Of a stretch of 64,000 nucleotides of DNA, positions 18,649 through 64,000 are shown one piece after another. The position numbers and the translations under genes were made by a program. Source of the DNA: Agelas oroides (lineage: Eukaryota; Porifera; Demospongiae; Agelasida; Agelasidae); the NCBI GenBank assembly GCA_949130485.1, contig OX422190.1:3710281-3774280 (forward strand). The letters run 5' to 3'. Within the stretch, counting starts at the first letter, position 1. Each line of letters begins with the position of its first letter. The notes beneath the pieces are model-generated. The model saw nothing but the letters and a program-made list of their open reading frames with translations, did no database searches and had not been told where the DNA came from.

Positions 18649-18920
18649 TGTGGTATAGTGAGTTAGATTCGGCTCGAACTAGGGTAGAGTGTGGTAGAGT
18701 GAGTTGGAGTCAAGGTAGAGTGTGGTAGAGTGAGATAGAGTCGGTTCGAGCCAGGGTAGAGGGTGGTATAGTGAGGTAGACTCAGGGTAGAGTAAGGTAG
18801 AGTGAGGTAGAGTCGGGGTGGAGTGCGGTAGAGTGAGGTAGAATCGTGTTGAGGCAGGGTAGAGTGTGGTAGAGTGAGGTAGAGTCGGGTCAAGCCAGGG
18901 TAGAGTGTGGTAGAGTGAGG

Positions 18921-20865
18921 TAGAGTCTGGTCGAGCCAGGGTAGAGAGTGGTAGAGTGAGGTAGAGTCGGGGTAAAGTGTGGTATAGTGAGGTAGAGTCG
19001 GGTAGAGCCAGGGTAGAGTGTGGTAGAGTGAGGTAGAATCGGGTAGAGTGTGGTTGAGTCGGTTCAAGCCAGGATAGAAGGTAGTAGAGGGAGGTAGAGT
19101 TGGGTTGAACCAGGGTAGATTGTGGTAGAGTGAGGTAGAGTCAGGTCGAGCCAGGGTAGAGTGTGGTAGAGTGAGGTAGAGTCGGGTCGAGTCAGGGTAG
19201 AGTGTGGTAGAGTGGGGTAGAGTGAGGTAGAGTCGGGTCGAGCAAGGGTAGAGTGTGGTAGAGTGAGGTGGAGTTGGGTCGAGACAGGGTAGAGGGTGGT
19301 AGAGAGAGAGAGTTGGGTTGAGCCAGGGTAGAGTGTGGTAGAGTGAGGTAGAGTCGCGTCGAGCTAGGGTAGAGTGTGGTAGACTGAGGTAGAGTCGGGT
19401 CGAGATAGGGTAGAGTGTGTTAGAGTGTGGTAGAGTCGGGGTAGAGTGTGGTAGAGTGAGGTAGAGTCGGGTAGAGCCAGGTTAGAGTGTGGTAGAGTGA
19501 GGTAGAGTCGTGTAGAGTGTGGTTGAGTCGGTTCAAGTCAGGGTAGAAGGTGGTAGAAGGAGGTAGAGTTGGTTTGAGCCAGGGTAGATTCTGGTAGAGT
19601 GAGGTAGAGTCGGGTCGAACCAGGGTAGAGTGTGGTAGAGTGAGGTAGAGTCGGGTCGAGCCAGGGTAGAGTATGGTAGAGTGGGGTAGAGTGAGGTAGA
19701 GTCGGTTGAGCAAGGGTAGAGTGTGGTAGAGTGAGGTGGAGTTGGGTCGAGCCAGGGTAGATTGTGGTAGAGAGAGAGAGAGTCAGGTTCAGCCAGGGTA
19801 GAGTGTGGTAGAATGAGGTATAGCAAGGGTAGAGTGTGGTAGAGTGAGGTAGAGTCGGGGAAGAGTGTGGTAGAGTGAGGTAGAGTCGGGGTAGAGTGTG
19901 GTATAGTGAGTTAGATTCGGCTCGAGCTAGGGTAGGGTGTGGTAAAGTGGGGTAGAGTGAGGTAGTGTCGGGTCGAGCAAGGGTAGAGTGTGGTAGAGTG
20001 AAGTACAGTCGTGTCGAGCCAGGGTAGAGTGTGGTAGAGTGAGGTAGAGTCAGGGTAGAGTGTGGTAGAGTGAGTTAGAGTTGGGGAAGAGTGTGGTAGA
20101 CTGAGGTAGAGTCGGGTCGAGCCAGGGTAGAGTGTGGTAGAGTGAGGTAGAGGCGGGTGGAGCCAGGGTAGAGAGTGGTAAAAGGAGGTAGAGTCGGGTA
20201 GAGCAAGGGTAGAGTGTGGTATTGTTAGGTAGAGTCGGGGTAGAGTGTGGTGAAGTGAGGTACAGTCGGGGTAGAGTGTGGTAGAGTGAGGTGGATTTGG
20301 GTCGAGACAGGGTAGACTGTGGTAGAGTGAGGTAGATTCGGGTCTAGCCTGGGTAGAGTGTGGTAGAGTGAGGTAGAGTTGGGTCGAGCCAGGGTAGAGT
20401 GGGGTAGAGTGAGGTAGAGTTGGGTCGGGACAGGGTAGAGTGTGGTAGAGTCGGGGTAGAGTGTGGTAGAGTGAGGAAGAGTCGGGTAGAGCCAGGGTAG
20501 AGTGTGGTAGAGTGAGGTAGAGTCGGATAGAGTGTGGTTGAGTTGGTTCAAGCCAGGGGAGAAGGTGGTAGAGGGAGGTAGAGTTGGGTTGAGCCAGGGT
20601 AGATTCTGGTAGAGTGAGGTAGAGTCGGGTCGAGCCAGGGTAGAGTGTGGTAGAGTGAGGTAGAGTCGGGTCGAGCCAGGGTAGATTTTGGTAGAGTGGG
20701 GTAGAGTGAGGTAGAGTCGGGTCGAGCAAGGGTAGAGTGTGGTAGACTGAGGTGGAGTTGGGTTGAGCCAGGGTAGAGTGTGGTAGAGAGAGAGAGAGTC
20801 GGGTTGAGCCAGGGTAGAGTGTGGAAGAGTGAGGTATAGCAAGGGTAGAGTGTGGTAGAGTGAGG
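18921..20865 (+). repeat. 1.95-kb HOR, copy 1 of 3
   Basis: Starts at TAGAGTCTGGTCGAGCC (m8) and runs through m9, m10, m11, m12, m13, lambda, m15, m16, m17, m18 and beta. The same landmark recurs at 20,866 (offset 1,945) and 22,627 (offset 1,761). All three copies share the order of variants. No gene. Confidence 0.9.
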
Positions 20866-22626
20866 TAGAGTCTGGTCGAGCCAGGGTAGAGAGTGGTAGA
20901 GTGAGGTAGAGTCGGGGTAAAGTGTGGTATAGTGAGGTAGAGTCGGGTAGAGCCAGGGTAGAGTGTGGTAGAGTGAGGTAGAATCGGGTAGAGTGTGGTT
21001 TAGTCGGTTCAAGCCAGGATAGAAGGTAGTAGAGGGAGGTAGAGTTGGGTTGAACCAGGGTAGATTGTGGTAGAGTGAGGTAGAGTCAGGTCGAGCCAGG
21101 GTAGAGTGTGGTAGAGTGAGGTAGAGTCGGGTCGAGTCAGGGTAGAGTGTGGTAGAGTGGGGTAGAGTGAGGTAGAGTCGGGTCGAGCAAGGGTAGAGTG
21201 TGGTAGAGTGAGGTGGAGTTGGGTCGAGACAGGGTAGAGGGTGGTAGAGAGAGAGAGTTGGGTTGAGCCAGGGTAGAGTGTGGTAGAGCGAGGTAGAGTC
21301 GCGTCGAGCTAGGGTAGAGTGTGGTAGACTGAGGTAGAGTCGGGTCGAGATAGGGTAGAGTGTGTTAGAGTGTGGTAGAGTCGGGGTAGAGTGTGGTAGA
21401 GTGAGGTAGAGTCGGGTCGAGCCAGGGTAGAGTATGGTAGAGTGGGGTAGAGTGAGGTAGAGTCGGTTGAGCAAGGGTAGAGTGTGGTAGAGTGAGGTGG
21501 AGTTGGGTCGAGCCAGGGTAGATTGTGGTAGAGAGAGAGAGAGTCAGGTTCAGCCAGGGTAGAGTGTGGTAGAATGTGGTATAGCAAGGGTAGAGTGTGG
21601 TAGAGTGAGGTAGAGTCGGGGAAGAGTGTGGTAGAGTGAGGTAGAGTCGGGGTAGAGTGTGGTATAGTGAGTTAGATTTGGCTCGAGCTAGGGTAGAGTG
21701 TGGTAAAGTGGGGTAGAGTGAGGTAGTGTCTGGTCGAGCAAGGGTAGAGTGTGGTAGAGTGAAGTACAGTCGTGTCGAGCCAGGGTAGAGTGTGGTAGAG
21801 TGAGGTAGAGTCAGGGTAGAGTGTGGTAGAGTGAGTTAGAGTTGGGGAAGAGTGTGGTAGACTGAGGTAGAGTCGGGTCGAGCCAGGGTAGAGTGTGGTA
21901 GAGTGAGGTAGAGGCGGGTGGAGCCAGGGTAGAGAGTGGTAAAAGGAGGTAGAGTCGGGTAGAGCAAGGGTAGAGTGTGGTATAGTGAGGTAGAGTCGGG
22001 GTAGAGTGTGGTGAAGTGAGGTACAGTCGGGGTAGAGTGTGGTAGAGTGAGGTGGATTTGGGTCGAGACAGGGTAGACTGTGGTAGAGTGAGGTAGATTC
22101 GGGTCTAGCCTGGGTAGAGTGTGGTAGAGTGAGGTAGAGTTGGGTCGAGCCAGGGTAGAGTGGGGTAGAGTGAGGTAGAGTCGGGTCGGGACAGGGTAGA
22201 GTGTGGTAGAGTCGGGGTAGAGTGTGGTAGAGTGAGGAAGAGTTGGGTAGAGCCAGGGTAGAGTGTGGTAGAGTGAGGTAGAGTCGGATAGAGTGTGGTT
22301 GAGTTGGTTCAAGCCAGGGGAGAAGGTGGTAGAGGGAGGTAGAGTTGGGTTGAGCCAGGGTAGATTCTGGTAGAGTGAGGTAGAGTCGGGTCGAGCCAGG
22401 GTAGAGTGTGGTAGAGTGAGGTAGAGTCGGGTCGAGCCAGGGTAGACTTTGGTAGAGTGGGGTAGAGTGAGGTAGAGTCGGGTCGAGCAAGGGTAGAGTG
22501 TGGTAGAGTGAGGTGGAGTTGGGTTGAGCCAGGGTAGAGTGTGGTAGAGAGAGAGAGAGTCAGGTTGAGCCAGGGTAGAGTGTGGAAGAGTGAGGTATAG
22601 CAATGGTAGAGTGTGGTAGAGTGAGG
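20866..22626 (+). repeat. 1.76-kb HOR, copy 2 of 3 (184 bp shorter)
   Basis: Same order as its neighbours. Near 21,410 it passes directly from the m10 region (GTGTTAGAGTGTGG) to GTCGGGTCGAGCCAGGG before m12 (GTATGGTAGAGTGGGG). It thus lacks the m11 stretch (GTTCAAGTCAGGGTAGAAGG) present near 19,532 and 23,238, a clean loss of 184 bp. Confidence 0.9.
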
Positions 22627-24571
22627 TAGAGTCTGGTCGAGCCAGGGTAGAGAGTGGTAGAGTGAGGTAGAGTCGGGGTAAAGTGTGGTATAGTGAGGTA
22701 GAGTCGGGTAGAGCCAGGGTAGAGTGTGGTAGAGTGAGGTAGAATCGGGTAGAGTGTGGTTGAGTCGGTTCAAGCCAGGATAGAAGGTAGTAGAGGGAGG
22801 TAGAGTTGGGTTGAACCAGGGTAGATTGTGGTAGAGTGAGGTAGAGTCAGGTCGAGCCAGGGTAGAGTGTGGTAGAGTGAGGTAGAGTCGGGTCGAGTCA
22901 GGGTAGAGTGTGGTAGAGTGGGGTAGAGTGAGGTAGAGTCGGGTCGAGCAAGGGTAGAGTGTGGTAGAGTGAGGTGGAGTTAGGTCGAGACAGGGTAGAG
23001 GGTGGTAGAGAGAGAGAGTTGGGTTGAGCCAGGGTAGAGTGTGGTAGAGTGAGGTAGAGTCGCGTCGAGCTAGGGTAGAGTGTGGTAGACTGAGGTAGAG
23101 TCGGGTCGAGATAGGGTAGAGTGTGTTAGAGTGTGGTAGAGTCGGGGTAGAGTGTGGTAGAGTGAGGTAGAGTCGGGTAGAGCCAGGTTAGAGTGTGGTA
23201 GAGTGAGGTAGAGTCGTGTAGAGTGTGGTTGAGTCGGTTCAAGTCAGGGTAGAAGGTGGTAGAAGGAGGTAGAGTTGGTTTGAGCCAGGGTAGATTCTGG
23301 TAGAGTGAGGTAGAGTCGGGTCGAACCAGGGTAGAGTGTGGTAGAGTGAGGTAGAGTCGGGTCGAGCCAGGGTAGAGTATGGTAGAGTGGGGTAGAGTGA
23401 GGTAGAGTCGGTTGAGCAAGGGTAGAGTGTGGTAGAGTGAGGTGGAGTTGGGTCGAGCCAGGGTAGATTGTGGTAGAGAGAGAGAGAGTCAGGTTCAGCC
23501 AGGGTAGAGTGTGGTAGAATGAGGTATAGCAAGGGTAGAGTGTGGTAGAGTGAGGTAGAGTCGGGGAAGAGTGTGGTAGAGTGAGGTAGAGTCGGGGTAG
23601 AGTGTGGTATAGTGAGTTAGATTCGGCTCGAGCTAGGGTAGAGTGTGGTAAAGTGGGGTAGAGTGAGGTAGTGTCGGGTCGAGCAAGGGTAGAGTGTGGT
23701 GGAGTGAAGTACAGTCGTGTCGAGCCAGGGTAGAGTGTGGTAGAGTGAGGTAGAGTCAGGGTAGAGTGTGGTAGAGTGAGTTAGAGTTGGGGAAGAGTGT
23801 GGTAGACTGAGGTAGAGTCGGGTCGAGCCAGGGTAGAGTGTGGTAGAGTGAGGTAGAGGCGGGTGGAGCCAGGGTAGAGAGTGGTAAAAGGAGGTAGAGT
23901 CGGGTAGAGCAAGGGTAGAGTGTGGTATAGTGAGGTAGAGTCGGGGTAGAGTGTGGTGAAGTGAGGTACAGTCGGGGTAGAGTGTGGTAGAGTGAGGTGG
24001 ATTTGGGTCGAGACAGGGTAGACTGTGGTAGAGTGAGGTAGATTCGGGTCTAGCCTGGGTAGAGTGTGGTAGAGTGAGGTAGAGTTGGGTCGAGCCAGGG
24101 TAGAGTGGGGTAGAGTGAGGTAGAGTCGGGTCGGGACAGGGTAGAGTGTGGTAGAGTCGGGGTAGAGTGTGGTAGAGTGAGGAAGAGTCGGGTAGAGCCA
24201 GGGTAGAGTGTGGTAGAGTGAGGTAGAGTCGGATAGAGTGTGGTTGAGTTGGTTCAAGCCAGGGGAGAAGGTGGTAGAGGGAGGTAGAGTTGGGTTGAGC
24301 CAGGGTAGATTCTGGTAGAGTGAGGTAGAGTCGGGTCGAGCCAGGGTAGAGTGTGGTAGAGTGAGGTAGAGTCGGGTCGAGCCAGGGTAGACTTTGGTAG
24401 AGTGGGGTAGAGTGAGGTAGAGTCGGGTCGAGCAAGGGTAGAGTGTGGTAGAGTGAGGTGGAGTTGGGTTGAGCCAGGGTAGAGTGTGGTAGAGAGAGAG
24501 AGAGTCGAGTTGAGCCAGGGTAGAGTGTGGAAGAGTGAGGTATAGCAAGGGTAGAGTGTGATAGAGTGAGG
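22627..24571 (+). repeat. 1.95-kb HOR, copy 3 of 3
   Basis: Restores the full 1,945-bp form with m11 present. It ends near 24,571, where the sequence continues into TAGACTCGGGGAAGAG (beta) instead of another m8. G at 23,701 is one of the two positions that differ from the second 26.8-kb unit. Confidence 0.88.
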
Positions 24572-24624
24572 TAGACTCGGGGAAGAGTGTGGTAGAGTGA
24601 GGTAGAGTCGGGGTAGAGTGTGGT

Positions 24625-24726
24625 ATAGTGAGTTAGATTCGGCTCGAGCTAGGGTAGAGTGTGGTAGAGTGTGGTATAGTGAGTTAGATTCGGCTCGAGC
24701 TAGGGTAGAGTGTGGTAGAGTGAGTT
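24625..24726 (+). repeat. Local 51-bp tandem duplication at the P-block entry
   Basis: The stretch TATAGTGAGTTAGATTCGG with TCGAGCTAGGG occurs at 24,625 and again at 24,676, an offset of 51 bp (five modules, one of them 11 bp). Other P-block entries (10,155; 34,121) have it once. The same doubling is at 51,416-51,517 in the second 26.8-kb unit. Confidence 0.85.
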
Positions 24727-24734
24727 GGAGTCAG

Positions 24735-26430
24735 GGTAGAGTGTGGTAGAGGGAGGTAGCGTCGGGTCAAGTCTGGATAGAGTGTGGTAGAGTGAGGTAG
24801 AGTCGGGTAGAGCCAGGGTAGAGTGTGGTAGAGAGAGGTAGAGTCAGGGTAGAGTGTTGTAGAGTGAGGTAGAGACCTGTCGAGGCAGGGTAGACTGTGG
24901 TAGAGTGAGGTAGAGTCGGCTCGAGCTAGGGTAGAGTGTGGTAGAGTGGGGTAGAGTGAGGTAGAGTCAGGTCGAGCAAGGGTAGAGTGTGGTAGAGGGA
25001 GGTAGAGTCGGGTCAAGCCAGGGTAGAGTGGGGTAGAGTGAGGTAGAGTCGGTACGAGCAAGGGTAGAGTGTGGTAGAGTGTGGTAGAGTGAGGTAGAAT
25101 CGGGTTGAGCTAGGGTAGAGATTGGTAGAGTGAGAGAGAGTCGGGTTGAGCCAGGGTAGTGTGTGGTAGAGTGAGGAAGACTAAGGGTAGAGTGTGGTAG
25201 AGTAAGGTAGAGTCGGGGTAGAGTGTGGGAGACTGAGGTAGAGTCTGATCGAGCCAGGGTAGAGTGTGGTAGAGTGAGGTAGAGTCGGGTCGCGCCAGGG
25301 TAGAGTGTGGTAGAGTGAGATAGAGTCGGGTCAAGCCACGGTAGAGTGTGGTAGAGTGAGGTAGAGTCGGGGTAGAGTGTGGTAGAGTGAGGTAGAATCG
25401 GGTCGAGCCACGGTAGAGTGTGGTAGAAGGAGGTAGAATTGTGTCGAGCCAGGGTAGAGTGTGGTAGAGTGAGGTAGAGTCGGGTCGAGCCAGGGTAGAG
25501 TGTGGTAGAGTGAGGTAGAGTCAGGTAGAGCCAGGGTAGAGTGTGGTAGAGAAAGGGAGAGTCGGGGTAGAGTGTGGTAGAGTCAGGTAGAGTCAGGGTA
25601 GAGTGTGGTAGAGTGAGGTAGAGTCGGGTCGGGACAGGGTAGAGTGTGGTAGAGTCGGGGTAGAGTGTTGTAGAGTGAGGAAGAGTCGGGTAGAGCCAGG
25701 GTAGAGTGTGGTAGAGAGAGAGAGAGTCGGGTTGAGCCAGGGTAGAGTGTGGAAGAGTGAGGTATAGCAAGGGTAGAGTGTAATAGAGTGAGGTAGACTC
25801 GGGGAAGAGTGTGGTAGAGTGAGGTAGAGTCGGGGTAGAGTGTGGTATAGTGAGTTAGATTTGGCTCGAACTAGGGTAGAGTGTGGTAGAGTGAGTTGGA
25901 GTCAGGGTAGAGTGTGGTAGAGTGAGGTAGAGTCGGTTCGAGCCAGGGTAGAGTGTGGTATAGTGAGGTAGAGTCAGGGTAGAGTAAGGTAGAGTGAGGT
26001 AGAATCGGGGTGGAGTGCGGTAGAGTGAGGTAGAATCATGTTGAGGCAGGGTAGAGTGTGGTAGAGTGAGGTAGAGTCGGGTCAAGCCAGGGTAGAGTGT
26101 GGTAGAGTGAGGTAGAGTCGGGTAGAGCCAGGGTAGAGAGTGGTAGAGAGAGGCACAGTCGGGGTAGAGTGTGGTAGAGTGAGGTAGAGTCGTCGAGGCA
26201 GGGTAGACTGTGGTAGAGTGAGGTAGAGTCCGGTCTAGCCATGGTAGAGTGTGGTAGAGTGAGGTAGAGTCGGGGTAGAGGGTGGTAGAGCGAGATAGAG
26301 TCGGGGTAGTGTGTGGTAGAATGAGGTAGAGTCGGGTGGAACCAGGGTAGAGTGTGGTAGAGTGAGGGAGAGTCGTGTCGAGCGAGGGTAGAGTGTGGTA
26401 GAGCGAGGTGGAGTCAGGTCTAGCCATGGT
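24735..26430 (+). repeat. P block, third occurrence, with a ~0.4-kb deletion
   Basis: Begins with GGAGGTAGCGTCGGGTCAAG at about 24,753 and follows the order seen at 10,205-12,305 and 34,172-36,256. It is about 0.4 kb shorter: after m4 (GTCGTCGAGGCAGGG near 26,190) it goes directly to the second GTCCGGTCTAGCCATGG (m6) near 26,229, without m5. Ends with m7 near 26,427. Confidence 0.85.
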
Positions 26431-29400
26431 AGAGTGTGGTAGAGTGAGGTAGAGTCTGGTCGAGCCAGGTTAGAGAGTGGTAGAGTGAGGTAGAGTCGGG
26501 GTAAAGTGTGGTATAGTGAGGTAGAGTCGGGTAGAGCCAGGGTAGAGTGTGGTAGAGTGAGGTAGAATCGGGTAGAGTGTGGTTGAGTCGGTTCAAGCCA
26601 GGATAGAAGGTAGTAGAGGGAGGTAGAGTTGGGTTGAACCAGGGTAGATTGTGGTAGAGTGAGGTAGAGTCAGGTCGAGCCAGGGTAGAGTGTGGTAGAG
26701 TGAGGTAGAGTCGGGTCGAGTCAGGGTAGAGTGTGGTAGAGTGGGGTAGAGTGAGGTAGAGTCGGGTCGAGCAAGGGTAGAGTGTGGTAGAGTGAGGTGG
26801 TGTTGGGTCGAGACAGGGTAGAGGGTGGTAGAGAGAGAGAGTTGGGTTGAGCCAGGGTAGAGTGTGGTAGAGTGAGGTAGAGTCGCGTCGAGCTAGGGTA
26901 GAGTGTGGTAGAGTGAGGTAGAGTCGGGTCGGGATAGGGTAGAGTGTGGTAGAGTCGGGGTAGAGTGTGGTAGAGTGAGGAAGAGTCGGGTAGAGCCAGG
27001 GTAGAGTGTGGTAGAGTGAGGTAGAGTCGGATAGAGTGTGGTTGAGTTGGTTCAAGCCAGGGGAGAAGGTGGTAGAGGGAGGTAGAGTTGGGTTGAGCCA
27101 GGGTAGATTGTGGTAGAGTGAGGTAGAGTCGTGTCGAGCCAGGGTAGAGTGTGGTAGAGTGAGGTAGAGTCGGGTCGAGACAGGGTAGACTTTGGTAGAG
27201 TTGGGTAGAGTGAGGTAGAGTCAGGTCGAGCAAGGGTAGAGTGTGGTAGAGTGAGGTGGAGTTGGGTTGAGCCAGGGTAGAGTGTGGAAGAGTGAGGTAT
27301 AGCAAGGGTAGAGTGTGATAGAGTGAGGTAGACTCGGGGAAGAGTGTGGTAGAGTGACGGAGAGTCGTGGTAGAGTGTGGTATAGTGAGTTAGATTCGGC
27401 TCGAGCTAGGGTAGAGTGTGGTAGAGTGAGTTGGAGTCAGGGTAGAGTGTGGTAGAGTGAGGTAGAGTCGGTTCGAGCCAGGGTAGAGTGTGGTATAGTG
27501 AGGTAGAGTCAGGGTAGAGTAAGGTAGAGTGAGGTAGAGTCGGGGTGGAGTGCGGTAGAGTGAGGTAGAATCGTGTTGAGGCAGGGTAGAGTGTGGTAGA
27601 GTGAGGTAGAGTCGGGTCAATCCAGGGTAGAGTGTGGTAGAGTGAGGTAGAGTCGGATAGAGCCAGGGTAGAGAGTGGTAGAGAGAGGTACAGTCGGGGT
27701 AGAGTGTGGTAGAGTGAGGTAGAGTCGTCGAGGCAGGGTAGACTGTGGTAGAGTGAGGTAGAGTCGGGTTGAGCTAGGGTAGAGTGTGGTGGAGTGGGGT
27801 AGAGTGAGGTAGAGTCCGGTCGAGCAAGGGTAGAGTGTGGTAGAGTGAGGTAGAGTCGGGTCGAGCCAGGGTAGAGTGAGTGGTAGATTGAGGTAGACTC
27901 GCGTCGAGCTAGGGTAGAGTGTGGTAGAGTGAGGTAGAGTGAGGTAGAATCGGATCGAGCCAGGGTAGAGTGTGGTAGAGTGAGGTAGAATCTGGTCGAG
28001 CCAGGGTAAAGTGTGGTAGAGTGAGGTAGAGTCGGGGTAGGGAGTGGTAGAGTGAGGTAGAGTCGGGGTAGAGTGTGGTAGAGTGAGGGAGAGTCGTGTC
28101 GAGCGAGGGTAGAGTGTGGTAGAGCGAGGTGGAGTCAGGTCTAGCCATGGTAGAGTGTGGTAGAGTGAGGTAGAGTCTGGTCGAGCGAGGGTAGAGAGTG
28201 GTAGAGTGAGGTAGAGTCGGGTAGAGCCAGGGTAGAGTGTGGTAGAGTGAGGTAGAATCGGGTAGAGTGTGGTTGAGTCGGTTCAAGCCAGGATAGAAGG
28301 TAGTAGAGGGAGGTAGAGTTGGGTTGAACCAGGGTAGATTGTGGTAGAGTGAGGTAGAGTCAGGTCGAGCCAGGGTAGAGTGTGGTAGAGTGAGGTAGAG
28401 TCGGGTCGAGTCAGGGTAGAGTGTGGTAGAGTGGGGTAGAGTGAGGTAGAGTCGGGTCGAGCAAGGGTAGAGTGTGGTAGAGTGAGGTGGAGTTGGGTCG
28501 AGACAGGGTAGAGGGTGGTAGAGAGAGAGAGTTGGGTTGAGCCAGGGTAGAGTGTGGTAGAGTGAGGTAGAGTCGCGTTGAGCTAGGGTAGAGTGTGGTA
28601 GAGTGAGGTAGAGTCGGGTCGAGATAGGGTAGAGTGTGTTAGAGTGTGGTAGAGTGAGGTAGAGTCGGGTAGAGCCAGGTTAGAGTGTGGTAGAGTGAGG
28701 TAGAGTCGTGTAGAGTGTGGTTGAGTCGGTTCAAGTCAGGGTAGAAGGTGGTAGAAGGAGGTAGAGTTGGTTTGAGCCAGGGTAGATTCTGGTAGAGTGA
28801 GGTAGAGTCGGGTCGAGCCAGGGTAGAGTGTGGTAGAGTGAGGTAGAGTCGGGTCGAGCCAGGGTAGAGTATGGTAGAGTGGGGTAGAGTGAGGTAGAGT
28901 CGGTTGAGCAAGGGTAGAGTGTGGTAGAGTGAGGTGGAGTTGGGTCGAGCCAGGGTAGATTGTGGTAGAGAGAGAGAGAGTCAGGTTGAGCCAGGGTAGA
29001 GTGTGGTAGAGTGAGGTATAGCAAGGGTAGAGTGTGGTAGAGTGAGGTAGAGTCGGGGAAGAGTGTGGTAGAGTGAGGTAGAGTCGGGGTAGAGTGTGGT
29101 ATAGTGAGTTAGATTCGGCTCGAGCTAGGGTAGAGTGTGGTATAGTGGGGTAGAGTGAGGTAGTGTCGGGTCGAGCAAGGGTAGAGTGTGGTAGAGTGAA
29201 GTACAGTCGTGTCGAGCCAGGGTAGAGTGTGGTAGAGTGAGGTAGAGTCAGGGTAGAGTGTGGTAGAGTGAGTTAGAGTCGGGGAAGAGTGTGGTAGACT
29301 GAGGTAGAGTCGGGTCGAGCCAGGGTAGAGTGTGGTAGAGTGAGGTAGAAGCGGGTGGAGCCAGGATAGAGAGTGGTAAAAGGAGGTAGAGTCGGGTAGA

Positions 29401-30959
29401 GCAAGGGTAGAGTGTGGTATAGTGAGGTAGAGTCGGGGTAGAGTGTGGTGGAGTGAGGTACAGTCGGGGTAGAGTGTGGTAGAGTGAGGTGGATTTGGGT
29501 CGAGACAGGGTAGACTGTGGTAGAGTGAGGTAGATTCCGGTCTAGCCTGGGTAGAGTGTGGTAGAGTGAGGTAGAGTTGGGTCGAGCCAGGGTAGAGTGG
29601 GATAGAGTGAGGTAGAGTCGGGTCGGGACAGGGTAGAGTGTGGTAGAGTCGGGGTAGAGTGTGGTAGAGTGAGGAAGAGTCGGGTAGAGCCAGGGAACAG
29701 TGTGGTAGAGTGAGGTAGAGTCGGATAGAGTGTGGTTGAGTTAGTTCAAGCCAGGGGAGAAGGTGGTAGAGGGAGGTAGATTTGGGTTGAGCCAGGGTAG
29801 ATTGTGGTAGAGTGAGGTAGAGTCGGGTCGAGCCAGGGTAGAGTGTGGTAGAGTGAGGTAGAGTCGGGTCGAGCCAGGGTAGACTTTGGTAGAGTGGGGT
29901 AGAGTGAGGTAGAGTCGGGTCGAGCAAGGGTAGAGTGTGGTAGAGTGAGGTGGAGTTGGGTTGAGCCAGGGTAGAGTGTGGTAGAGAGAGAGAGAGTCGG
30001 GTTGAGCCAGGGTAGAGTGTGGAAGAGTGAGGTATAGCAAGGGTAGAGTGTGATAGAGTGAGGTAGACTCGGGGAAGAGTGTGCTAGAGTGAGGTAGAGT
30101 CGGGGTAGAGTGTGGTATAGTGAGTTAGATTCGGCTCGAGCTAGGGTAGAGTGTGGTAGAGTGAGTTGGAGTCAGGGTAGAGTGTGGTAGAGTGAGGTAG
30201 AGTCGGGTAGAGCCAGGGTAGAGTGTAGTATAGTGGGGTAGAGTGAGGTAGAGTCGGGTCGAGCAAGGGTAGAGTGTGGTAGAGTGAGGTGGAGTTGGGT
30301 CGAGACAGGGTAGAGGGTGGTAGAGAGAGAGAGTTGGGTTGAGCCAGGGTAGAGTGTGGTAGAGTGAGGTAGAGTCGCGTCGAGCTAGGGTAGAGTGTGG
30401 TAGACTGAGGTAGAGTCGGGTCGAGATAGGGTAGAGTGTGTTAGAGTGTGGTAGAGTCGGGGTAGAGTGTGGTAGAGTGAGGTAGAGTCGGGTAGAGCCA
30501 GGTTAGAGTGTGGTAGAGTGAGGTAGAGTCGTGTAGAGTGTGGTTGAGTCGGTTCAAGTCAGAGTAGAAGGTGGTAGAAGGAGGTAGAGTTGGTTTGAGC
30601 TAGGTTAGATTCTGGTAGAGTGAGGTAGAGTCGGGTCGAGCCAGGGTAGAGTGTGGTAGAGTGAGGTAGAGTCGGGTCGAGCCAGGGTAGAGTATGGTAG
30701 AGTGGGGTAGAGTGAGGTAGAGTCGGTTGAGCAAGGGTAGAGTGTGGTAGAGTGAGGTAGAGTCAGGTAGAGCCAGGGTAGAGTGTGGTAGAGAAAGGGA
30801 GAGTCGGGGTAGAGTGTGGTAGAGTGAGGTAGAGTCAGGGTAGAGTGTGGTAGAGTGAGGTAGAGTCGGGTCGGGACAGGGTAGAGTGTGGTAGAGTCGG
30901 GGTAGAGTGTGGTAGAGTGAGGAAGAGTCGGGTAGAGCCAGGGTAGAGTGTGGTAGAGA
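26431..30959 (+). repeat. Mosaic segment with three partial marker cycles
   Basis: Order read: m8 (26,455), m9 (26,815), m10 (26,882), jump to m17 (27,050), m18 (27,188), beta (27,290), m3 (27,395), m4 (27,725), m5 (27,880), m7 (28,137), m8 (28,180), m9-m13, lambda (29,110), m15-m18, beta (29,985), m3 (30,130), jump to m9 (30,305), m10, m11, m12 (30,690), HOR-A-like tail (30,765), beta (30,955). All positions are approximate. Each jump skips markers but never reverses their order. Only satellite monomers. Confidence 0.8.
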
Positions 30960-45439: not shown

Positions 45440-45711
45440 TGTGGTATAGTGAGTTAGATTCGGCTCGAACTAGGGTAGAGTGTGGTAGAGTGAGTTGGAG
45501 TCAAGGTAGAGTGTGGTAGAGTGAGATAGAGTCGGTTCGAGCCAGGGTAGAGGGTGGTATAGTGAGGTAGACTCAGGGTAGAGTAAGGTAGAGTGAGGTA
45601 GAGTCGGGGTGGAGTGCGGTAGAGTGAGGTAGAATCGTGTTGAGGCAGGGTAGAGTGTGGTAGAGTGAGGTAGAGTCGGGTCAAGCCAGGGTAGAGTGTG
45701 GTAGAGTGAGG

Positions 45712-51362: not shown

Positions 51363-51525
51363 TAGACTCGGGGAAGAGTGTGGTAGAGTGAGGTAGAGTC
51401 GGGGTAGAGTGTGGTATAGTGAGTTAGATTCGGCTCGAGCTAGGGTAGAGTGTGGTAGAGTGTGGTATAGTGAGTTAGATTCGGCTCGAGCTAGGGTAGA
51501 GTGTGGTAGAGTGAGTTGGAGTCAG

Positions 51526-53221: not shown

Positions 53222-56200
53222 AGAGTGTGGTAGAGTGAGGTAGAGTCTGGTCGAGCCAGGTTAGAGAGTGGTAGAGTGAGGTAGAGTCGGGGTAAAGTGT
53301 GGTATAGTGAGGTAGAGTCGGGTAGAGCCAGGGTAGAGTGTGGTAGAGTGAGGTAGAATCGGGTAGAGTGTGGTTGAGTCGGTTCAAGCCAGGATAGAAG
53401 GTAGTAGAGGGAGGTAGAGTTGGGTTGAACCAGGGTAGATTGTGGTAGAGTGAGGTAGAGTCAGGTCGAGCCAGGGTAGAGTGTGGTAGAGTGAGGTAGA
53501 GTCGGGTCGAGTCAGGGTAGAGTGTGGTAGAGTGGGGTAGAGTGAGGTAGAGTCGGGTCGAGCAAGGGTAGAGTGTGGTAGAGTGAGGTGGTGTTGGGTC
53601 GAGACAGGGTAGAGGGTGGTAGAGAGAGAGAGTTGGGTTGAGCCAGGGTAGAGTGTGGTAGAGTGAGGTAGAGTCGCGTCGAGCTAGGGTAGAGTGTGGT
53701 AGAGTGAGGTAGAGTCGGGTCGGGATAGGGTAGAGTGTGGTAGAGTCGGGGTAGAGTGTGGTAGAGTGAGGAAGAGTCGGGTAGAGCCAGGGTAGAGTGT
53801 GGTAGAGTGAGGTAGAGTCGGATAGAGTGTGGTTGAGTTGGTTCAAGCCAGGGGAGAAGGTGGTAGAGGGAGGTAGAGTTGGGTTGAGCCAGGGTAGATT
53901 GTGGTAGAGTGAGGTAGAGTCGTGTCGAGCCAGGGTAGAGTGTGGTAGAGTGAGGTAGAGTCGGGTCGAGACAGGGTAGACTTTGGTAGAGTTGGGTAGA
54001 GTGAGGTAGAGTCAGGTCGAGCAAGGGTAGAGTGTGGTAGAGTGAGGTGGAGTTGGGTTGAGCCAGGGTAGAGTGTGGAAGAGTGAGGTATAGCAAGGGT
54101 AGAGTGTGATAGAGTGAGGTAGACTCGGGGAAGAGTGTGGTAGAGTGACGGAGAGTCGTGGTAGAGTGTGGTATAGTGAGTTAGATTCGGCTCGAGCTAG
54201 GGTAGAGTGTGGTAGAGTGAGTTGGAGTCAGGGTAGAGTGTGGTAGAGTGAGGTAGAGTCGGTTCGAGCCAGGGTAGAGTGTGGTATAGTGAGGTAGAGT
54301 CAGGGTAGAGTAAGGTAGAGTGAGGTAGAGTCGGGGTGGAGTGCGGTAGAGTGAGGTAGAATCGTGTTGAGGCAGGGTAGAGTGTGGTAGAGTGAGGTAG
54401 AGTCGGGTCAATCCAGGGTAGAGTGTGGTAGAGTGAGGTAGAGTCGGATAGAGCCAGGGTAGAGAGTGGTAGAGAGAGGTACAGTCGGGGTAGAGTGTGG
54501 TAGAGTGAGGTAGAGTCGTCGAGGCAGGGTAGACTGTGGTAGAGTGAGGTAGAGTCGGGTTGAGCTAGGGTAGAGTGTGGTGGAGTGGGGTAGAGTGAGG
54601 TAGAGTCCGGTCGAGCAAGGGTAGAGTGTGGTAGAGTGAGGTAGAGTCGGGTCGAGCCAGGGTAGAGTGAGTGGTAGATTGAGGTAGACTCGCGTCGAGC
54701 TAGGGTAGAGTGTGGTAGAGTGAGGTAGAGTGAGGTAGAATCGGATCGAGCCAGGGTAGAGTGTGGTAGAGTGAGGTAGAATCTGGTCGAGCCAGGGTAA
54801 AGTGTGGTAGAGTGAGGTAGAGTCGGGGTAGGGAGTGGTAGAGTGAGGTAGAGTCGGGGTAGAGTGTGGTAGAGTGAGGGAGAGTCGTGTCGAGCGAGGG
54901 TAGAGTGTGGTAGAGCGAGGTGGAGTCAGGTCTAGCCATGGTAGAGTGTGGTAGAGTGAGGTAGAGTCTGGTCGAGCGAGGGTAGAGAGTGGTAGAGTGA
55001 GGTAGAGTCGGGTAGAGCCAGGGTAGAGTGTGGTAGAGTGAGGTAGAATCGGGTAGAGTGTGGTTGAGTCGGTTCAAGCCAGGATAGAAGGTAGTAGAGG
55101 GAGGTAGAGTTGGGTTGAACCAGGGTAGATTGTGGTAGAGTGAGGTAGAGTCAGGTCGAGCCAGGGTAGAGTGTGGTAGAGTGAGGTAGAGTCGGGTCGA
55201 GTCAGGGTAGAGTGTGGTAGAGTGGGGTAGAGTGAGGTAGAGTCGGGTCGAGCAAGGGTAGAGTGTGGTAGAGTGAGGTGGAGTTGGGTCGAGACAGGGT
55301 AGAGGGTGGTAGAGAGAGAGAGTTGGGTTGAGCCAGGGTAGAGTGTGGTAGAGTGAGGTAGAGTCGCGTTGAGCTAGGGTAGAGTGTGGTAGAGTGAGGT
55401 AGAGTCGGGTCGAGATAGGGTAGAGTGTGTTAGAGTGTGGTAGAGTGAGGTAGAGTCGGGTAGAGCCAGGTTAGAGTGTGGTAGAGTGAGGTAGAGTCGT
55501 GTAGAGTGTGGTTGAGTCGGTTCAAGTCAGGGTAGAAGGTGGTAGAAGGAGGTAGAGTTGGTTTGAGCCAGGGTAGATTCTGGTAGAGTGAGGTAGAGTC
55601 GGGTCGAGCCAGGGTAGAGTGTGGTAGAGTGAGGTAGAGTCGGGTCGAGCCAGGGTAGAGTATGGTAGAGTGGGGTAGAGTGAGGTAGAGTCGGTTGAGC
55701 AAGGGTAGAGTGTGGTAGAGTGAGGTGGAGTTGGGTCGAGCCAGGGTAGATTGTGGTAGAGAGAGAGAGAGTCAGGTTGAGCCAGGGTAGAGTGTGGTAG
55801 AGTGAGGTATAGCAAGGGTAGAGTGTGGTAGAGTGAGGTAGAGTCGGGGAAGAGTGTGGTAGAGTGAGGTAGAGTCGGGGTAGAGTGTGGTATAGTGAGT
55901 TAGATTCGGCTCGAGCTAGGGTAGAGTGTGGTATAGTGGGGTAGAGTGAGGTAGTGTCGGGTCGAGCAAGGGTAGAGTGTGGTAGAGTGAAGTACAGTCG
56001 TGTCGAGCCAGGGTAGAGTGTGGTAGAGTGAGGTAGAGTCAGGGTAGAGTGTGGTAGAGTGAGTTAGAGTCGGGGAAGAGTGTGGTAGACTGAGGTAGAG
56101 TCGGGTCGAGCCAGGGTAGAGTGTGGTAGAGTGAGGTAGAAGCGGGTGGAGCCAGGATAGAGAGTGGTAAAAGGAGGTAGAGTCGGGTAGAGCAAGGGTA

Positions 56201-59200
56201 GAGTGTGGTATAGTGAGGTAGAGTCGGGGTAGAGTGTGGTGGAGTGAGGTACAGTCGGGGTAGAGTGTGGTAGAGTGAGGTGGATTTGGGTCGAGACAGG
56301 GTAGACTGTGGTAGAGTGAGGTAGATTCCGGTCTAGCCTGGGTAGAGTGTGGTAGAGTGAGGTAGAGTTGGGTCGAGCCAGGGTAGAGTGGGATAGAGTG
56401 AGGTAGAGTCGGGTCGGGACAGGGTAGAGTGTGGTAGAGTCGGGGTAGAGTGTGGTAGAGTGAGGAAGAGTCGGGTAGAGCCAGGGAACAGTGTGGTAGA
56501 GTGAGGTAGAGTCGGATAGAGTGTGGTTGAGTTAGTTCAAGCCAGGGGAGAAGGTGGTAGAGGGAGGTAGATTTGGGTTGAGCCAGGGTAGATTGTGGTA
56601 GAGTGAGGTAGAGTCGGGTCGAGCCAGGGTAGAGTGTGGTAGAGTGAGGTAGAGTCGGGTCGAGCCAGGGTAGACTTTGGTAGAGTGGGGTAGAGTGAGG
56701 TAGAGTCGGGTCGAGCAAGGGTAGAGTGTGGTAGAGTGAGGTGGAGTTGGGTTGAGCCAGGGTAGAGTGTGGTAGAGAGAGAGAGAGTCGGGTTGAGCCA
56801 GGGTAGAGTGTGGAAGAGTGAGGTATAGCAAGGGTAGAGTGTGATAGAGTGAGGTAGACTCGGGGAAGAGTGTGCTAGAGTGAGGTAGAGTCGGGGTAGA
56901 GTGTGGTATAGTGAGTTAGATTCGGCTCGAGCTAGGGTAGAGTGTGGTAGAGTGAGTTGGAGTCAGGGTAGAGTGTGGTAGAGTGAGGTAGAGTCGGGTA
57001 GAGCCAGGGTAGAGTGTAGTATAGTGGGGTAGAGTGAGGTAGAGTCGGGTCGAGCAAGGGTAGAGTGTGGTAGAGTGAGGTGGAGTTGGGTCGAGACAGG
57101 GTAGAGGGTGGTAGAGAGAGAGAGTTGGGTTGAGCCAGGGTAGAGTGTGGTAGAGTGAGGTAGAGTCGCGTCGAGCTAGGGTAGAGTGTGGTAGACTGAG
57201 GTAGAGTCGGGTCGAGATAGGGTAGAGTGTGTTAGAGTGTGGTAGAGTCGGGGTAGAGTGTGGTAGAGTGAGGTAGAGTCGGGTAGAGCCAGGTTAGAGT
57301 GTGGTAGAGTGAGGTAGAGTCGTGTAGAGTGTGGTTGAGTCGGTTCAAGTCAGAGTAGAAGGTGGTAGAAGGAGGTAGAGTTGGTTTGAGCTAGGTTAGA
57401 TTCTGGTAGAGTGAGGTAGAGTCGGGTCGAGCCAGGGTAGAGTGTGGTAGAGTGAGGTAGAGTCGGGTCGAGCCAGGGTAGAGTATGGTAGAGTGGGGTA
57501 GAGTGAGGTAGAGTCGGTTGAGCAAGGGTAGAGTGTGGTAGAGTGAGGTAGAGTCAGGTAGAGCCAGGGTAGAGTGTGGTAGAGAAAGGGAGAGTCGGGG
57601 TAGAGTGTGGTAGAGTGAGGTAGAGTCAGGGTAGAGTGTGGTAGAGTGAGGTAGAGTCGGGTCGGGACAGGGTAGAGTGTGGTAGAGTCGGGGTAGAGTG
57701 TGGTAGAGTGAGGAAGAGTCGGGTAGAGCCAGGGTAGAGTGTGGTAGAGAGAGAGAGAGTCGGGTTGAACCAGGGTAGAGTGTGGAAGAGTGAGGTATAG
57801 CAAGGGTAGAGTGTGATAGAGTGAGGTAGACTCGGGGAAGAGTGTGGTAGAGTGAGGTAGAGTCGGGGTAGAGTGTGGTATAGTGAGTTAGATTCGGCTC
57901 GAACTAGGGTAGAGTGTGGTAGAGTGAGTTGGAGTCAGGGTAGAGTATGGTAGAGTGAGGTAGAGTCGGTTCGAGCCAGGGTAGAGTGTGGTATAGTGAG
58001 GTAGACTCAGGGTAGAGTAAGGTAGAGTGAGGTAGAGTCGGGGTGGAGTGCGGTAGAGTGAGGTAGAATCGTGTTGAGGCTGGGTAGAGTGTGGTAGAGT
58101 GAGGTAGAGTCGGGTCAAGCCAGGGTAGAGTGTGGTAGAGTGAGGTAGAGTCGGGTAGAGCCAGGGTAGAAAGTGGTAGAGAGAGGTACAGTCGGGGTAG
58201 AGTGTGGTAGAGTGAGGTAGAGTCGTCGACGCAGGGTAGACTGTGGTAGAGTGAGGTAGAGTCGGGTTGAGCTAGGGTAGAGTGTGGTTGAGTGGGGTAG
58301 AGTGAGGTAGAGTCCGGTCGAGCAAGGGTAGAGTGTGGTAGAGTGAGGTAGAGTCGGGTCGAGCCAGGGTAGAGTGAGCGGTAGATTGAGGTAGACTCGC
58401 GTCGAGCTAGGGGAGAGTGTGGTAGAGTGAGGTAGAGTCGGGGTAGAGTGAGGTAGAGTGAGGTAGAATCTGATCGAGCCAGGGTAGAGTGTGGTAGAGT
58501 GAGGTAGAATCTGGTCGAGCCAGGGTAAAGTGTGGTACAGTGAGGTAGAGTCGGGGTAGGGAGTGGTAGAGTGAGGTAGAGTCGGGGTAGAGTGTGGTAG
58601 AGTGAGGTAGAGTCCGGTCTAGCCATGTTAGAGTGTGGTAGAGTGAGGTAGAGTCGGGGTAGAGTGTGGTAGAGTGAGGTAGAGTCCGGTCTAGCCATGG
58701 TAGAGTGTGGTAGAGTGAGGTAGAGTCGGGGTAGAGGGTGGTAGAGCGAGATAGAGTCGGGGTAGTGTGTGGTAGAATGAGGTAGAGTCGGGTGGAACCA
58801 GGGTAGAGTGTGGTAGAGTGAGGGAGAGTCGTGTCGAGCGAGGGTAGAGTGTGGTAGAGCGAGGTGGAGTCAGGTCTAGCCATGGTAGAGTGTGGTAGAG
58901 TGAGGTAGAGTCTGGTCGAGCCAGGTTAGAGAGTGGTAGAGTGAGGTAGAGTCGGGGTAAAGTGTGGTATAGTGAGGTAGAGTCGGGTAGAGCCAGGGTA
59001 GAGTGTGGTAGAGTGAGGTAGAATCGGGTAGAGTGTGGTTGAGTCGGTTCAAGCCAGGATAGAAGGTAGTAGAGGGAGGTAGAGTTGGGTTGAACCAGGG
59101 TAGATTGTGGTAGAGTGAGGTAGAGTCAGGTCGAGCCAGGGTAGAGTGTGGTAGAGTGAGGTAGAGTCGGGTCGAGTCAGGGTAGAGTGTGGTAGAGTGG

Positions 59201-60962
59201 GGTAGAGTGAGGTAGAGTCGGGTCGAGCAAGGGTAGAGTGTGGTAGAGTGAGGTGGAGTTGGGTCGAGACAGGGTAGAGGGTGGTAGAGAGAGAGAGTTG
59301 GGTTGAGCCAGGGTAGAGTGTGGTAGAGTGAGGTAGAGTCGCGTCGAGCTAGGGTAGAGTGTGGTAGAGTGAGGTAGAGTCGGGTCGAGATAGGGTAGAG
59401 TGTGTTAGAGTGTGGTAGAGTCGGGGTAGAGTGTGGTAGAGTGAGGTAGAGTCGGGTAGAGCCAGGTTAGAGTGTGGTAGAGTGAGGTAGAGTCGTGTAG
59501 AGTGTGGTTGAGTCGGTTCAAGTCAGGGTAGAAGGTGGTAGAAGGAGGTAGAGTTGGTTTGAGCCAGGGTAGATTCTGGTAGAGTGAGGTAGAGTCGGGT
59601 CGAGCCAGGGTAGAGTGTGGTAGAGTGAGGTAGAGTCGGGTCGAGCCAGGGTAGAGTATGGTAGAGTGGGGTAGAGTGAGGTAGAGTCGGTTGAGCAAGG
59701 GTAGAGTGTGGTAGAGTGAGGTGGAGTTGGGTCGAGACAGGGTAGATTGTGGTAGAGAGGGAGAGAGTCAGGTTGAGCCAGGGTAGAGTGTGGTAGAATG
59801 AAGTATAGCAAGGGTAGAGTGTGGTAGAGTGAGGTAGAGTCGGGGAAGAGTGTGGTAGAGTGAGGTAGAGTCGGGGTAGAGTGTGGTATAGTGAGTTAGA
59901 TTCGGCTCGAGCTAGGGTAGAGTGTGGTAAAGTGGGGTAGAGTGAGGTAGTGTCGGGTCGAGCAAGGGTAGAGTGTGGTAGACTGAAGTACAGTCGTGTC
60001 GAGCCAGGGTAGAGTGTGGTAGAGTGAGGTAGAGTCAGGGTAGAGTGTGGTAGAGTGAGTTAGAGTCGGGGAAGAGTGTGGTAGACTGAGGTAAAGTCGG
60101 ATCGAGCCAGGGTAGAGTGTGGTAGAGTGAGGTAGAGGCGGGTGGAGCCAGGGTAGAGAGTGGTAAAAGGAGGTAGAGTCGGGTAGAGCAAGGGTAGAGT
60201 GTGGTATAGTGAGGTAGAGTCGGGGTAGAGTGTGGTGAAGTGAGGTACAGTCGGGGTAGAGTGTGGTAGAGTGAGGTGGATTTGGGTCGAGACAGGGTAG
60301 ACTGTGGTAGAGTGAGGTAGATTCGGGTCTATCTTGGGTAGAGTGTGGTAGAGTGAGGTAGAGTTGGGTCGAGCCAGGGTAGAGTGGGGTAGAGTGAGGT
60401 AGAGTCGGGTCAGGACAGGGTAGAGTGTGGTAGAGTCGGGGTAGAGTGTGGTAGAGTGAGGAAGAGTCGGGTAGAGCCAGGGTAGAGTGTGGTAGAGTGA
60501 GGTAGAGTCGGACAGAGTGTGGTTGAGTTGGTTCAAGCCAGGGGAGAATGTGGTAGAGGGAGGTAGAGTTGGGTTGAGCCAGGGTAGATTGTGGTAGAGT
60601 GAGGTAGAGTCGGGTCGAGCCAGGGTAGAGTGTGGTAGAGTGAGGTAGAGTCGGGTCGAGCCAGGGTAGACTTTGGTAGAGTGGGGTAGAGTGAGGTAGA
60701 GTCGGGTCGAGCAAGGGTAGAGTGTGGTAGAGTGAGGTGGAGTTGGGATGAGACAGGGTAGAGTGTGGTAGAGAGAGAGAGAGTCGGGTTGAGCCAGGGT
60801 AGAGTGTGGAAGAGTGAGGTAAAGCAAGGGTAGGGTGTGATAGAGTGAGGTAGACTCGGGGAAGAGTGTGGTAGAGTGAGGTAGAGTCGGGGTAGAGTGT
60901 GGTATAGTGAGTTAGATTCGGCTCGAGCTAGGGTAGAGTGTGGTAGAGTGAGTTGGAGTCAG
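53222..60962 (+). repeat. Mosaic marker cycles, second 26.8-kb unit
   Basis: Counterpart of 26,431-34,171 with the same series of jumps (m10 to m17 near 53,720; m3 to m9 near 57,000; m12 to HOR-A-like tail near 57,550). A at 58,137 replaces G of unit 1. Satellite only. Confidence 0.85.
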
Positions 60963-63047
60963 GGTAGAGTGTGGTAGAGGGAGGTAGCGTCGGGTCAAGT
61001 CTGGATAGAGTGTGGTAGAGTGAGGTAGAGTCGGGTAGAGCCAGGGTAGAGTGTGGTAGAGAGAGGTAGAGTCAGGGTAGAGTGTTGTAGAGTGAGGTAG
61101 AGACCTGTCGAGGCAGGGTAGACTGTGGTAGAGTGAGGTAGAGTCGGCTCGAGCTAGGGTAGAGTGTGGTAGAGTGGGGTAGAGTGAGGTAGAGTCAGGT
61201 CGAGCAAGGGTTGAGTGTGGTAGAGGGAGGTAGAGTCGGGTCAAGCCAGGGTAGAGTGGGGTAGAGTGAGGTAGAGTCGGTACGAGCAAGGGTAGAGTGT
61301 GGTAGAGTGAGGTAGAATCGGGTTGAGCTAGGGTAGAGATTGGTAGAGTGAGAGAGAGTCGGGTTGAGCCAGGGTAGAGTGTGGTAGAGTGAGGAAGACT
61401 AAGGGTAGAGTGTGGTAGAGTAAGGTAGAGTCGGGGTAGAGTGTGGGAGACTGAGGTAGAGTCTGATCGAGCCAGGGTAGAGTGTGGTAGAGTGAGGTAG
61501 AGTCGGGTCGCGCCAGGGTAGAGTGTGCTAGAGTGAGATAGAGTCGGGTCAAGCCACGGTAGAGTGTGGTAGAGCGAGGTAGAGTCGGGGTAGAGTGTGG
61601 TAGAGTAAGGTAGAGTCGAGTCGAGCCACGGTAGAGTGTGGTAGAGGGAGGTAGAATTGTGTCGAGCCAGGGTAGAGTGTGGTAGAGTGAGGTAGAGTCG
61701 GGTCGAGCCAGGGTAGAGTGTGGTAGAGTGAGGTAGAGTCAGGTAGAGCCAGGGTAGAGTGTGGTAGAGAAAGGTAGAGTCGGGGTAGAGTGTGGTAGAG
61801 TGAGGTAGAGTCAGGGTAGAGTGTGGTAGAGTGAGGTAGAGTCGGGTCGGGACAGGGTAGAGTGTGGTAGAGTCGGGGTAGAGTGTGGTAGAGTGAGGAA
61901 GAGTCGGGTCGAGCCAGGGTAGAGTGTGGTAGAGAGAGAGAGAGTCGGGTTGAGACAGGGTAGAGTGTGGAAGAGTGAGGTATAGCAAGGGTAGAGTGTG
62001 ATAGAGTGAGGTAGACTCGGGGAAGAGTGTGGTAGAGTGAGGTAGAGTCAGGTTAGAGTGTGGTATAGTGAGTTAGATTTGGCTCGAACTAGGGTAGAGT
62101 GTGGTAGAGTGAGTTGGAGTCAGGGTAGAGTGTGGTAGAGTGAGGTAGAGTCGGTTCGAGCCAGGGTAGAGTGTCGTATATTGAGGTAGAGTCGGGGTAG
62201 AGTAAGGTAGAGTGAGGTAGAGTCGGGGTGGAGTGCGGTAGAGTGAGGTAGAATCGTGTTGAGGCAGGGTAGAGTGTGGTAGAGTGAGGTAGAGTCGGGT
62301 CATGCCAGGATAGAGTGTGGTAGAGTGAGGTAGAGTCGGGTAGAGCCAGGGTAGAGAGTGGTAGAGAGAGGCACAGTCGGGGTAGAGTGTGGTAGAGTGA
62401 GGTAGAGTCGTCGAGGCAGGGTAGACTGTGGTAGAGTGAGGTAGAGTCGGGTTGAGCTAGGGTAGAGTGTGGTTGAGTGGGATAGAGTGAGGTAGAGTCC
62501 GGTCGAGCAAGGGTAGAGTGTGGTAGAGTGAGGTAGAGTCGGGTCGAGCCAGGGTGTAGTGAGTGGTAGATTGAGGTAGACTTGCGTCGAGCTAGGGGAG
62601 AGTGTGGTAGAGTGAGGTAGAGTGAGGCAGAATCGGATCGAGCCAGGGTAGAGTGTGGTAGAGTGAGGTAGAATCTGGTCGAGCCAGGGTAAAGTGTGGT
62701 AGAGTGAGGTAGAGTCGGGGTAGGGAGTGGTAGAGTGAGGTAGAGTCGGGGTAGAGTGTGGTAGAGTGAGGTAGAGTCCGGTCTAGCCATGTTAGAGTGT
62801 GGTAGAGTGAGGTAGAGTCGGGATAGGGTGTGGTAGAGTGAGGTAGAGTCCGGTCTAGCCATGGTAGAGTGTGGTAGAGTGAGGTAGAGTCGGGGTAGAG
62901 GGTGGTAGAGCGAGATAGAGTCGGGGTAGTGTGTGGTAGAATGAGGTAGAGTCGGGTGGAACCAGGGTAGGGTGTGGTAGAGTGAGGGAGAGTCGTGTCG
63001 AGCGATGGTAGAGTGTGGTAGAGCGAGGTGGAGTCAGGTCTAGCCAT
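60963..63047 (+). repeat. P block about 2.08 kb, second 26.8-kb unit
   Basis: Counterpart of 34,172-36,256. Contains the repeat of the 358-codon stop-free - strand stretch (60,912-61,988), again not a gene. Confidence 0.85.
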
Positions 63048-64000
63048 GGTAGAGTGTGGTAGAGTGAGGTAGAGTGTGGTCGAGCCAGGGTAGAGTGTGG
63101 TAGAGTGAGGTAGAGTCGGGGTAAAGTGTGGTATAGTGAGGTAGAGTCGGAGTAGAGCCAGGGTAGAGTGTGGTAGAGTGAGGTAGAATCGGGTAGAGTG
63201 TGATTGAGTCGGCTCAAGCCAGGATAGAAGGTAGTAGAGGGAGGTAGAGTTGGGTTGAACCAGGGTAGATTGTGGTAGAGTGAGGTAGAGTCAGGTCGAG
63301 CCAGGGTAGAGTGTGGTAGAGTGAGGTAGAGTCGGGTCGAGTCAGGGTAGAGTGTGGTAGAGTGGGGTAGAGTGAGGTAGAGTCGGGTCGACCAAGGGTA
63401 GAGTGTGGTATAGTGAGGTGGAGTTGGGTCGAGACAGGGTAGAGGGTGGTAGAGAGAGAGAGTTGGGTTGAGCCAGGGTAGAGTGTGGTAGAGTGAGGTA
63501 GAGTCGCGTCGAGCTAGGGTAGAGTGTGGTAGAGTGAGGTAGAGTCGGGTCGAGATAGGGTAGAGTGTGTTAGAGTGTGGTAGAGTCGGGGTAGAGTGTG
63601 GTAGAGTGAGGTAGAGTCGGGTAGAGCCAGGTTAGAGTGTGGTAGAGTGAGGTAGAGTCTGATCGAGCCAGGGTAGAGTGTGGTAGAGTGAGGTAGAGTC
63701 GGGTCGCGCCAGGGTAGAGTGTGGTAGAGTGAGATAGAGTCGGGTCAAGCCACGGTAGAGTGTGGTAGAGTGAGGTAGAGTCGGGGTAGAGTGTGGTAGA
63801 GTGAGGTAGAGTCGGGTTGAGCCACGGTAGAGTGTGGTAGAGGGAGGTAGAATTGTGTCGAGCCAGGGTAGAGTGTTGTAGAGTGAGGTAGAGTCGGGTC
63901 GAGCCAGGGTAGAGTGTGGTAGAGTGAGGTAGAGTCAGGTAGAGCCAGGGTAGAGTGTGGTAGAGAAAGGTAGAGTCGGGGTAGAGTGTGGTAGAGTGAG
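63048..64000 (+). repeat. m8-m10 and start of the 2,967-bp unit, second 26.8-kb unit
   Basis: Counterpart of 36,257-37,209. From 63,507 it enters the sequence that begins the 2,967-bp duplication in unit 1. The array leaves the window mid-monomer. Confidence 0.83.

Follow-up and report, generated by a model that had tools for sequence, protein, structure and literature searches.

How did a stretch of almost 24 kb come to stand twice, head to tail and nearly unchanged, inside a satellite array of the sponge Agelas oroides? The window analysed here is the whole 64,000-nucleotide stretch C8:3,710,281-3,774,280, which lies within a 10,367,247-bp contig (C8; OX422190.1) of an assembly of 259 Mb and 141 contigs (GCA_949130485.1). 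All positions are window positions, and flanking sequence was included as well, 60 kb on the left side of the window and 140 kb on the right side. We propose that the window holds most of a real and recent head-to-tail tandem duplication of 23,824 bp, which probably arose by homologous unequal exchange and was followed by minor changes. The setting is as follows.

1 to 64,000 (whole window), + strand: interior of a G-rich satellite array, with subunits of ~10 bp in 31-, 41- and 72-bp repeats, free of N.

The initial annotation had reported that the sequence from 18,649 to 37,209 recurs at an offset of exactly +26,791 with two base differences, and had offered, as one of two explanations, that a block of 26.8 kb was added. 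Comparison of the window with itself bears out the recurrence: 18,649-37,209 equals 45,440-64,000 with 2 mismatches in 18,561 bp, and these are the two differences that had been named, 23,701 G / 50,492 A and 31,346 G / 58,137 A. The first mismatch to the left at this offset is at 18,648/45,439, and to the right the register ends at 39,682/66,473, i.e. 2.5 kb beyond the right edge of the window. The match then shifts to an offset of +23,824, which extends over 39,650-45,468 with one mismatch, at 44,708. A single block of 26,791 bp is rejected, because the register becomes +23,824 at 39,650-39,682. Rather, the duplicated block measures 23,824 bp, with 3 differences in 23,853 shared bp (a divergence of 0.013%), and the extra 2,967 bp (26,791 = 23,824 + 2,967) are a separate exact tandem copy present in the first unit only. 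The two units, delimited by identity in the two registers, are:

18,649 to 45,439, + strand: unit 1, 26,791 bp, consisting of the 23,824-bp block and the extra internal tandem copy of 2,967 bp.
45,440 to 64,000 in the window, continuing outside it to ~69,263, + strand: unit 2, 23,824 bp.

Any feature inside 18,649-39,682 is automatically common to both units; this would hold for the older scars named in the initial annotation (184-bp gap, 51-bp doubling, P-block deletion) if they lie there. This pair of units accounts for the four longest exact matches of the array (8,336, 7,644, 5,058 and 5,052 bp), and the next longest measure 3,000 bp (the internal 2,967-bp copy), 2,709, 2,000 and 1,836 bp. 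Because the longest exact matches of the array all lie within the unit pair, the recurrence is not a chance similarity of low-complexity satellite. Moreover, other copies in the array differ more than the two units do, as had been noticed from the sequence, with the exception of the exact 2,967-bp pair; where other stretches of the array give long alignments with gaps, identity is 79-92%, mostly ~80%. These copies had been described as higher-order repeat (HOR) copies, which is a loose term here. A 52-base marker occurs at 115 places, allowing up to 6 mismatches, with irregular spacings of 448 to 19,981 bp, among which 469 and 1,015 recur; no regular higher-order unit was seen along this marker, and a regular HOR array is rejected on account of its irregular spacing.

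The anatomy of the junction between the units bears on how the second copy was made. Up to 45,439 the sequence matches the right end of the block (the stretch ending at 69,263), and from 45,469 it departs from what comes after that end and matches the left end of the block (18,649 onward). Between the two lies a short tract shared by both parents, and the parent sites match well around it:

45,440 to 45,468, + strand: 29-bp junction tract on which both parents agree, bounded by the mismatches 18,648/45,439 and 45,469/69,293.
18,501 to 19,000, + strand: left parent site, 500 bp that align ungapped at 97.0% to the right parent site.

The differences between the parent sites number 4 in the 148 bp to the left of the switch and 11 in the 352 bp to its right, and the sites are in monomer register at the junction. 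Gapped alignment over 500 to 1,500 bp gives an identity of 73-75% to the left of the switch and 81-87% to its right. As a background, a sample of 109,309,800 pairs was drawn from 500-bp windows lying 15-33 kb apart, with unit 2 excluded and with pairs at 75% or more counted as in phase; the 500-bp span was picked after the junction had been seen. Among all sampled pairs, 68,467 were in phase and 2,729 reached 97%, i.e. ~4% of the in-phase pairs. The break thus falls where the match is among the better ones, in line with the expectation for homologous pairing.

We suggest the following sequence of events. Out-of-step pairing would have brought together two sites separated by 23.8 kb, with 500 bp of in-register repeat in common at 97%, presumably on sister chromatids or homologues, the exchange between chromatids being deduced from the junction anatomy that is observed. 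Exchange within the 29-bp identical tract would then have yielded one product carrying the block twice. Afterwards, unit 1 would have gained three single-base changes, and a difference of one 2,967-bp tandem copy would have arisen between the units.

The traces of these later changes in the sequence are:

36,683 to 42,649, + strand: younger internal change, in which 36,683-39,682 equals 39,650-42,649, identical over 3,000 bp at an offset of 2,967.
23,701, + strand: substitution probably private to unit 1, A to G (partner 50,492 A), by context comparison.
31,346, + strand: substitution probably private to unit 1, A to G (partner 58,137 A), by context comparison.
44,708, + strand: third substitution probably private to unit 1, G to A (partner 68,532 G, outside the window), by context comparison.

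The 2,967-bp segment occurs once in unit 2, in a copy identical to both of those in unit 1. Because the copy number differs between the two units, the 2,967-bp change must have arisen after the large duplication. Thus, the suggestion that the large duplication is the youngest event in the window does not hold, and this change in copy number came later. It could be a gain in unit 1 or a loss in unit 2; because there are 0 differences in 3,000 bp, the sequence accommodates both directions, and our preference for a gain is a guess.

The direction of the substitutions was examined at other places in the fetched sequence that have a similar 80-base context, either exact or with at most 2 or at most 8 mismatches. 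For 23,701, all 20 of the 20 other places with the exact context carry A, and with at most 8 mismatches the counts are 449 A, 4 G and 3 T. The exact context of 31,346 occurs nowhere else; A is found in 24 of 24 places with at most 2 mismatches, and with at most 8 there are 703 A, 2 T, 1 G and 1 C. Similarly, the exact context of 44,708 occurs nowhere else, G is found in 23 of 23 places with at most 2 mismatches, and at most 8 mismatches give 400 G, 2 A and 1 C. Because the other places in the array with a similar context carry the base of unit 2, the three substitutions, all of which are A/G transitions, most likely arose in unit 1. Distributed over two lineages of 23,853 bp, the 3 differences amount to 6.3e-5 per site and lineage, a figure given purely as an illustration. 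The pair could also look younger than its true age through gene conversion.

The unit pair is the largest in the array and the least diverged among the large pairs, and the array appears from its sequence to contain many further block duplications of different ages, at offsets of ~0.7 to 17 kb. Other tandem pairs measure 3,116 bp (7 differences), 2,792 bp (6), 2,524 bp (7), 2,283 bp (12), 1,998 bp (10) and 1,761 bp (15), at 99.2-99.8% identity. With the shorter pairs of 1,015, 811 and 749 bp, which go down to 97.6%, the full range is 749 to 3,116 bp at 97.6-100%. Displaced pairs are found at offsets of 10,645-10,686 and 16,515-17,112 bp; these pairs are broken by insertions and deletions, with their better ungapped pieces at ~99.4-99.9%, and gapped blastn of these two large pairs gives overlapping chains at 79-92%. 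A 2-kb segment of the units (29,836-31,864 and 56,627-58,655) is also 99.4-99.5% identical to 128,311-130,339, which lies 98.5 and 71.7 kb away; this match suggests long-distance exchange or conversion within the array.

In total, a near-identical head-to-tail block, a junction in homologous register and several events of different ages in one array are what unequal homologous exchange would leave behind. With only 3 differences in 23,853 bp and a junction in homologous in-register sequence, a very recent duplication by unequal exchange, one of the two explanations initially offered, is the best reading, and we hold it to be probable. Several points weigh against it. The evidence is one assembled sequence, and the other block pairs, being drawn from that assembly as well, give no independent proof against assembly error. 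The three differences, all in unit 1, could partly be consensus errors, and the copy number is a lower bound, as further identical copies may be collapsed. In addition, the 2,967-bp event has an identical tract of 33 bp with gapped flank identity of 64-68%. The edges of six other tandem pairs (2,967, 2,792, 2,524, 3,116, 2,283 and 1,998 bp) have ungapped 50-bp flanks at 18-84% as opposed to 94-96% here, a weak test in that these edges are score drop-off points and not mapped junctions. Long homology at the break is thus not shown to be a general feature of this array.

A real tandem duplication could also have been made by one-sided copying, i.e. by out-of-register break-induced replication or synthesis-dependent repair instead of a reciprocal crossover. 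In this case, the new changes would be expected in the freshly synthesised copy. Error-prone copying of this kind would produce what is found in unit 1: it carries 3 of 3 substitutions, and a gain there is one reading of the 2,967-bp difference. However, this asymmetry is weak: 3 of 3 in one of two copies is expected by chance in 1 of 4 cases, and even 4 of 4 in 1 of 8. Moreover, the 2,967-bp difference could have either polarity, and the end product in a single array looks alike under copying and crossover. We therefore regard one-sided copying as unlikely, if a serious contender. A narrower form of the idea, which we think very improbable, is that error-prone break-induced replication marked unit 1 as the newly made copy, with unit 2 keeping the usual base of the array at the three sites; if it were true, fresh block duplications in these arrays would reveal which copy is new.

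The duplication could, alternatively, be an assembly artefact, in which two haplotypes were spliced head to tail or a chimeric read was carried into the contig. All of the evidence comes from assembled sequence, the assembly contains gaps (200 Ns at -42,125 to -41,926), and near-exact repeats that exceed the read length are a classic trouble spot. This gap is the sole run of N across the fetched stretch and lies outside the array, which spans ~-37,400 to ~193,500 (~231 kb) in a single orientation and without Ns; as the composition is satellite-like across the entire array, no flanking DNA was carried along. The joined parents share just 29 exact bp, which is too short for an overlap join, and no long exact overlap is seen between them. 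Unit 1 also has a 2,967-bp copy that is absent from unit 2, and three substitutions separate the units. With no exact repeat longer than 8,336 bp, sites that tell the units apart recur at least every ~8.3 kb, and reads of at least 10 kb could separate the units; ordinary long accurate reads reach beyond ~8.3 kb. The two haplotypes of an outbred animal, moreover, often diverge by more than 0.013%. These observations make an artefact distinctly unlikely. The variant raised in the initial annotation, the same molecule laid end to end, conflicts with the structural difference, the three substitutions and the 29-bp parental overlap, and one molecule laid twice is rejected because the units differ by 2,967 bp.

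End joining, microhomology-mediated repair or replication slippage, with longer homology playing no role, would fit an exact tract of only 29 bp, the 33 bp within 64-68% flanks at the 2,967-bp event and the poor ungapped flank identity of other tandem pairs. Around the large junction, however, 500 bp of flanking sequence align in register at 97%, which ~4% of the sampled in-phase pairs attain, and we give this explanation hardly any weight.

The array on C8 is the only array of this satellite that was read through. Among 100 of 171 places listed for the satellite pattern, which reach into C12, clusters are found on C4, C5, C7, C8, C10, C11 and C12, the last with two clusters among the matches listed; C1, C2 and C3 have isolated places only, and C6 and C9 have none. 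A cluster on C15 was also seen in a separate search, and here a pair at a spacing of 10,160 bp has 1 difference in 5,000 bases compared. Pattern matches also recur at 5,460 bp on C4 and at 2,816 bp on C12, where the spacing alone was seen. A search with the junction region returned eight places among the matches listed, all on C8 and with the place of the query itself absent; it is uninformative about other contigs.

Another satellite, with a period of 192 bp, flanks the G-rich array at either end (L010:4-7874, L010:8075-10000 and L028:790-10000); its printed unit lies, at the left border, on opposite strands on either side of the 200-N gap. Just beyond the left edge of the array is a reverse-transcriptase frame (RVT_1, E 6.5e-32; L011:1143-2432, - strand), which probably belongs to a retrotransposon. 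The stop codons TAA/TAG/TGA number 135/190/335 on the C-rich strand as opposed to 105/4847/1660 on the other strand. Because stop codons are few there, repetitive frames of up to 358 amino acids are open on the C-rich strand, probably due to composition alone. The two longest of them are at the same place in both units, i.e. at 34,121-35,197 and 60,912-61,988 (- strand).

Elsewhere in the assembly, a contig of 22,436 bp (C141; L045, L046) is mitochondrial: it has TGA inside COX1, which is in two parts with a LAGLIDADG frame between them, and, in the scanned stretch, genes for the Ser, Ala and Cys tRNAs. Such features point to a non-bilaterian animal, perhaps a sponge. A second contig (C107, 16,816 bp; L047) carries a COX1 frame that, unlike the mitochondrial COX1, is without internal stops and is possibly bacterial. 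Runs of TTAGGG occur at many internal places on C1 and C2 and also near the end of C2 (26,170,172-26,170,339 of 26,170,762).

The duplication on C8 offers a clean young example of satellite array growth, in which the switch point is resolved to 29 bp and the later changes of the copies are partly ordered. With satellite clusters on eight contigs and the fresh pair on C15, this genome could be used to measure how large such blocks are, how much homology the events need and how old they are, in an animal outside the usual models. A literature search on sponge satellite DNA found nothing, and no search was aimed at this repeat unit itself.

The process proposed here is ordinary satellite evolution, and the event is a well-resolved case of a known process. 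The classical model has satellites evolving through unequal crossover of sister chromatids. Neither the reciprocal product expected under this model nor the generation in which the event took place is visible in one assembled genome; what the array does share with the model is the gain of a block at out-of-register homologous pairing, with the crossover point within locally similar repeats. For the arrays of alpha-satellite in human centromeres, unequal crossing over and saltatory amplification are described as modes of change, and the same study also makes a case for further mechanisms besides simple unequal crossover (PMC11062924). Compared with these arrays by sequence alone, the sponge array differs in its subunit of ~10 bp in 31/41-bp repeats and in having no regular higher-order unit, and it resembles them, as they are portrayed in that study (PMC11062924), in its long tandem arrangement, with near-identical young copies among older diverged ones.

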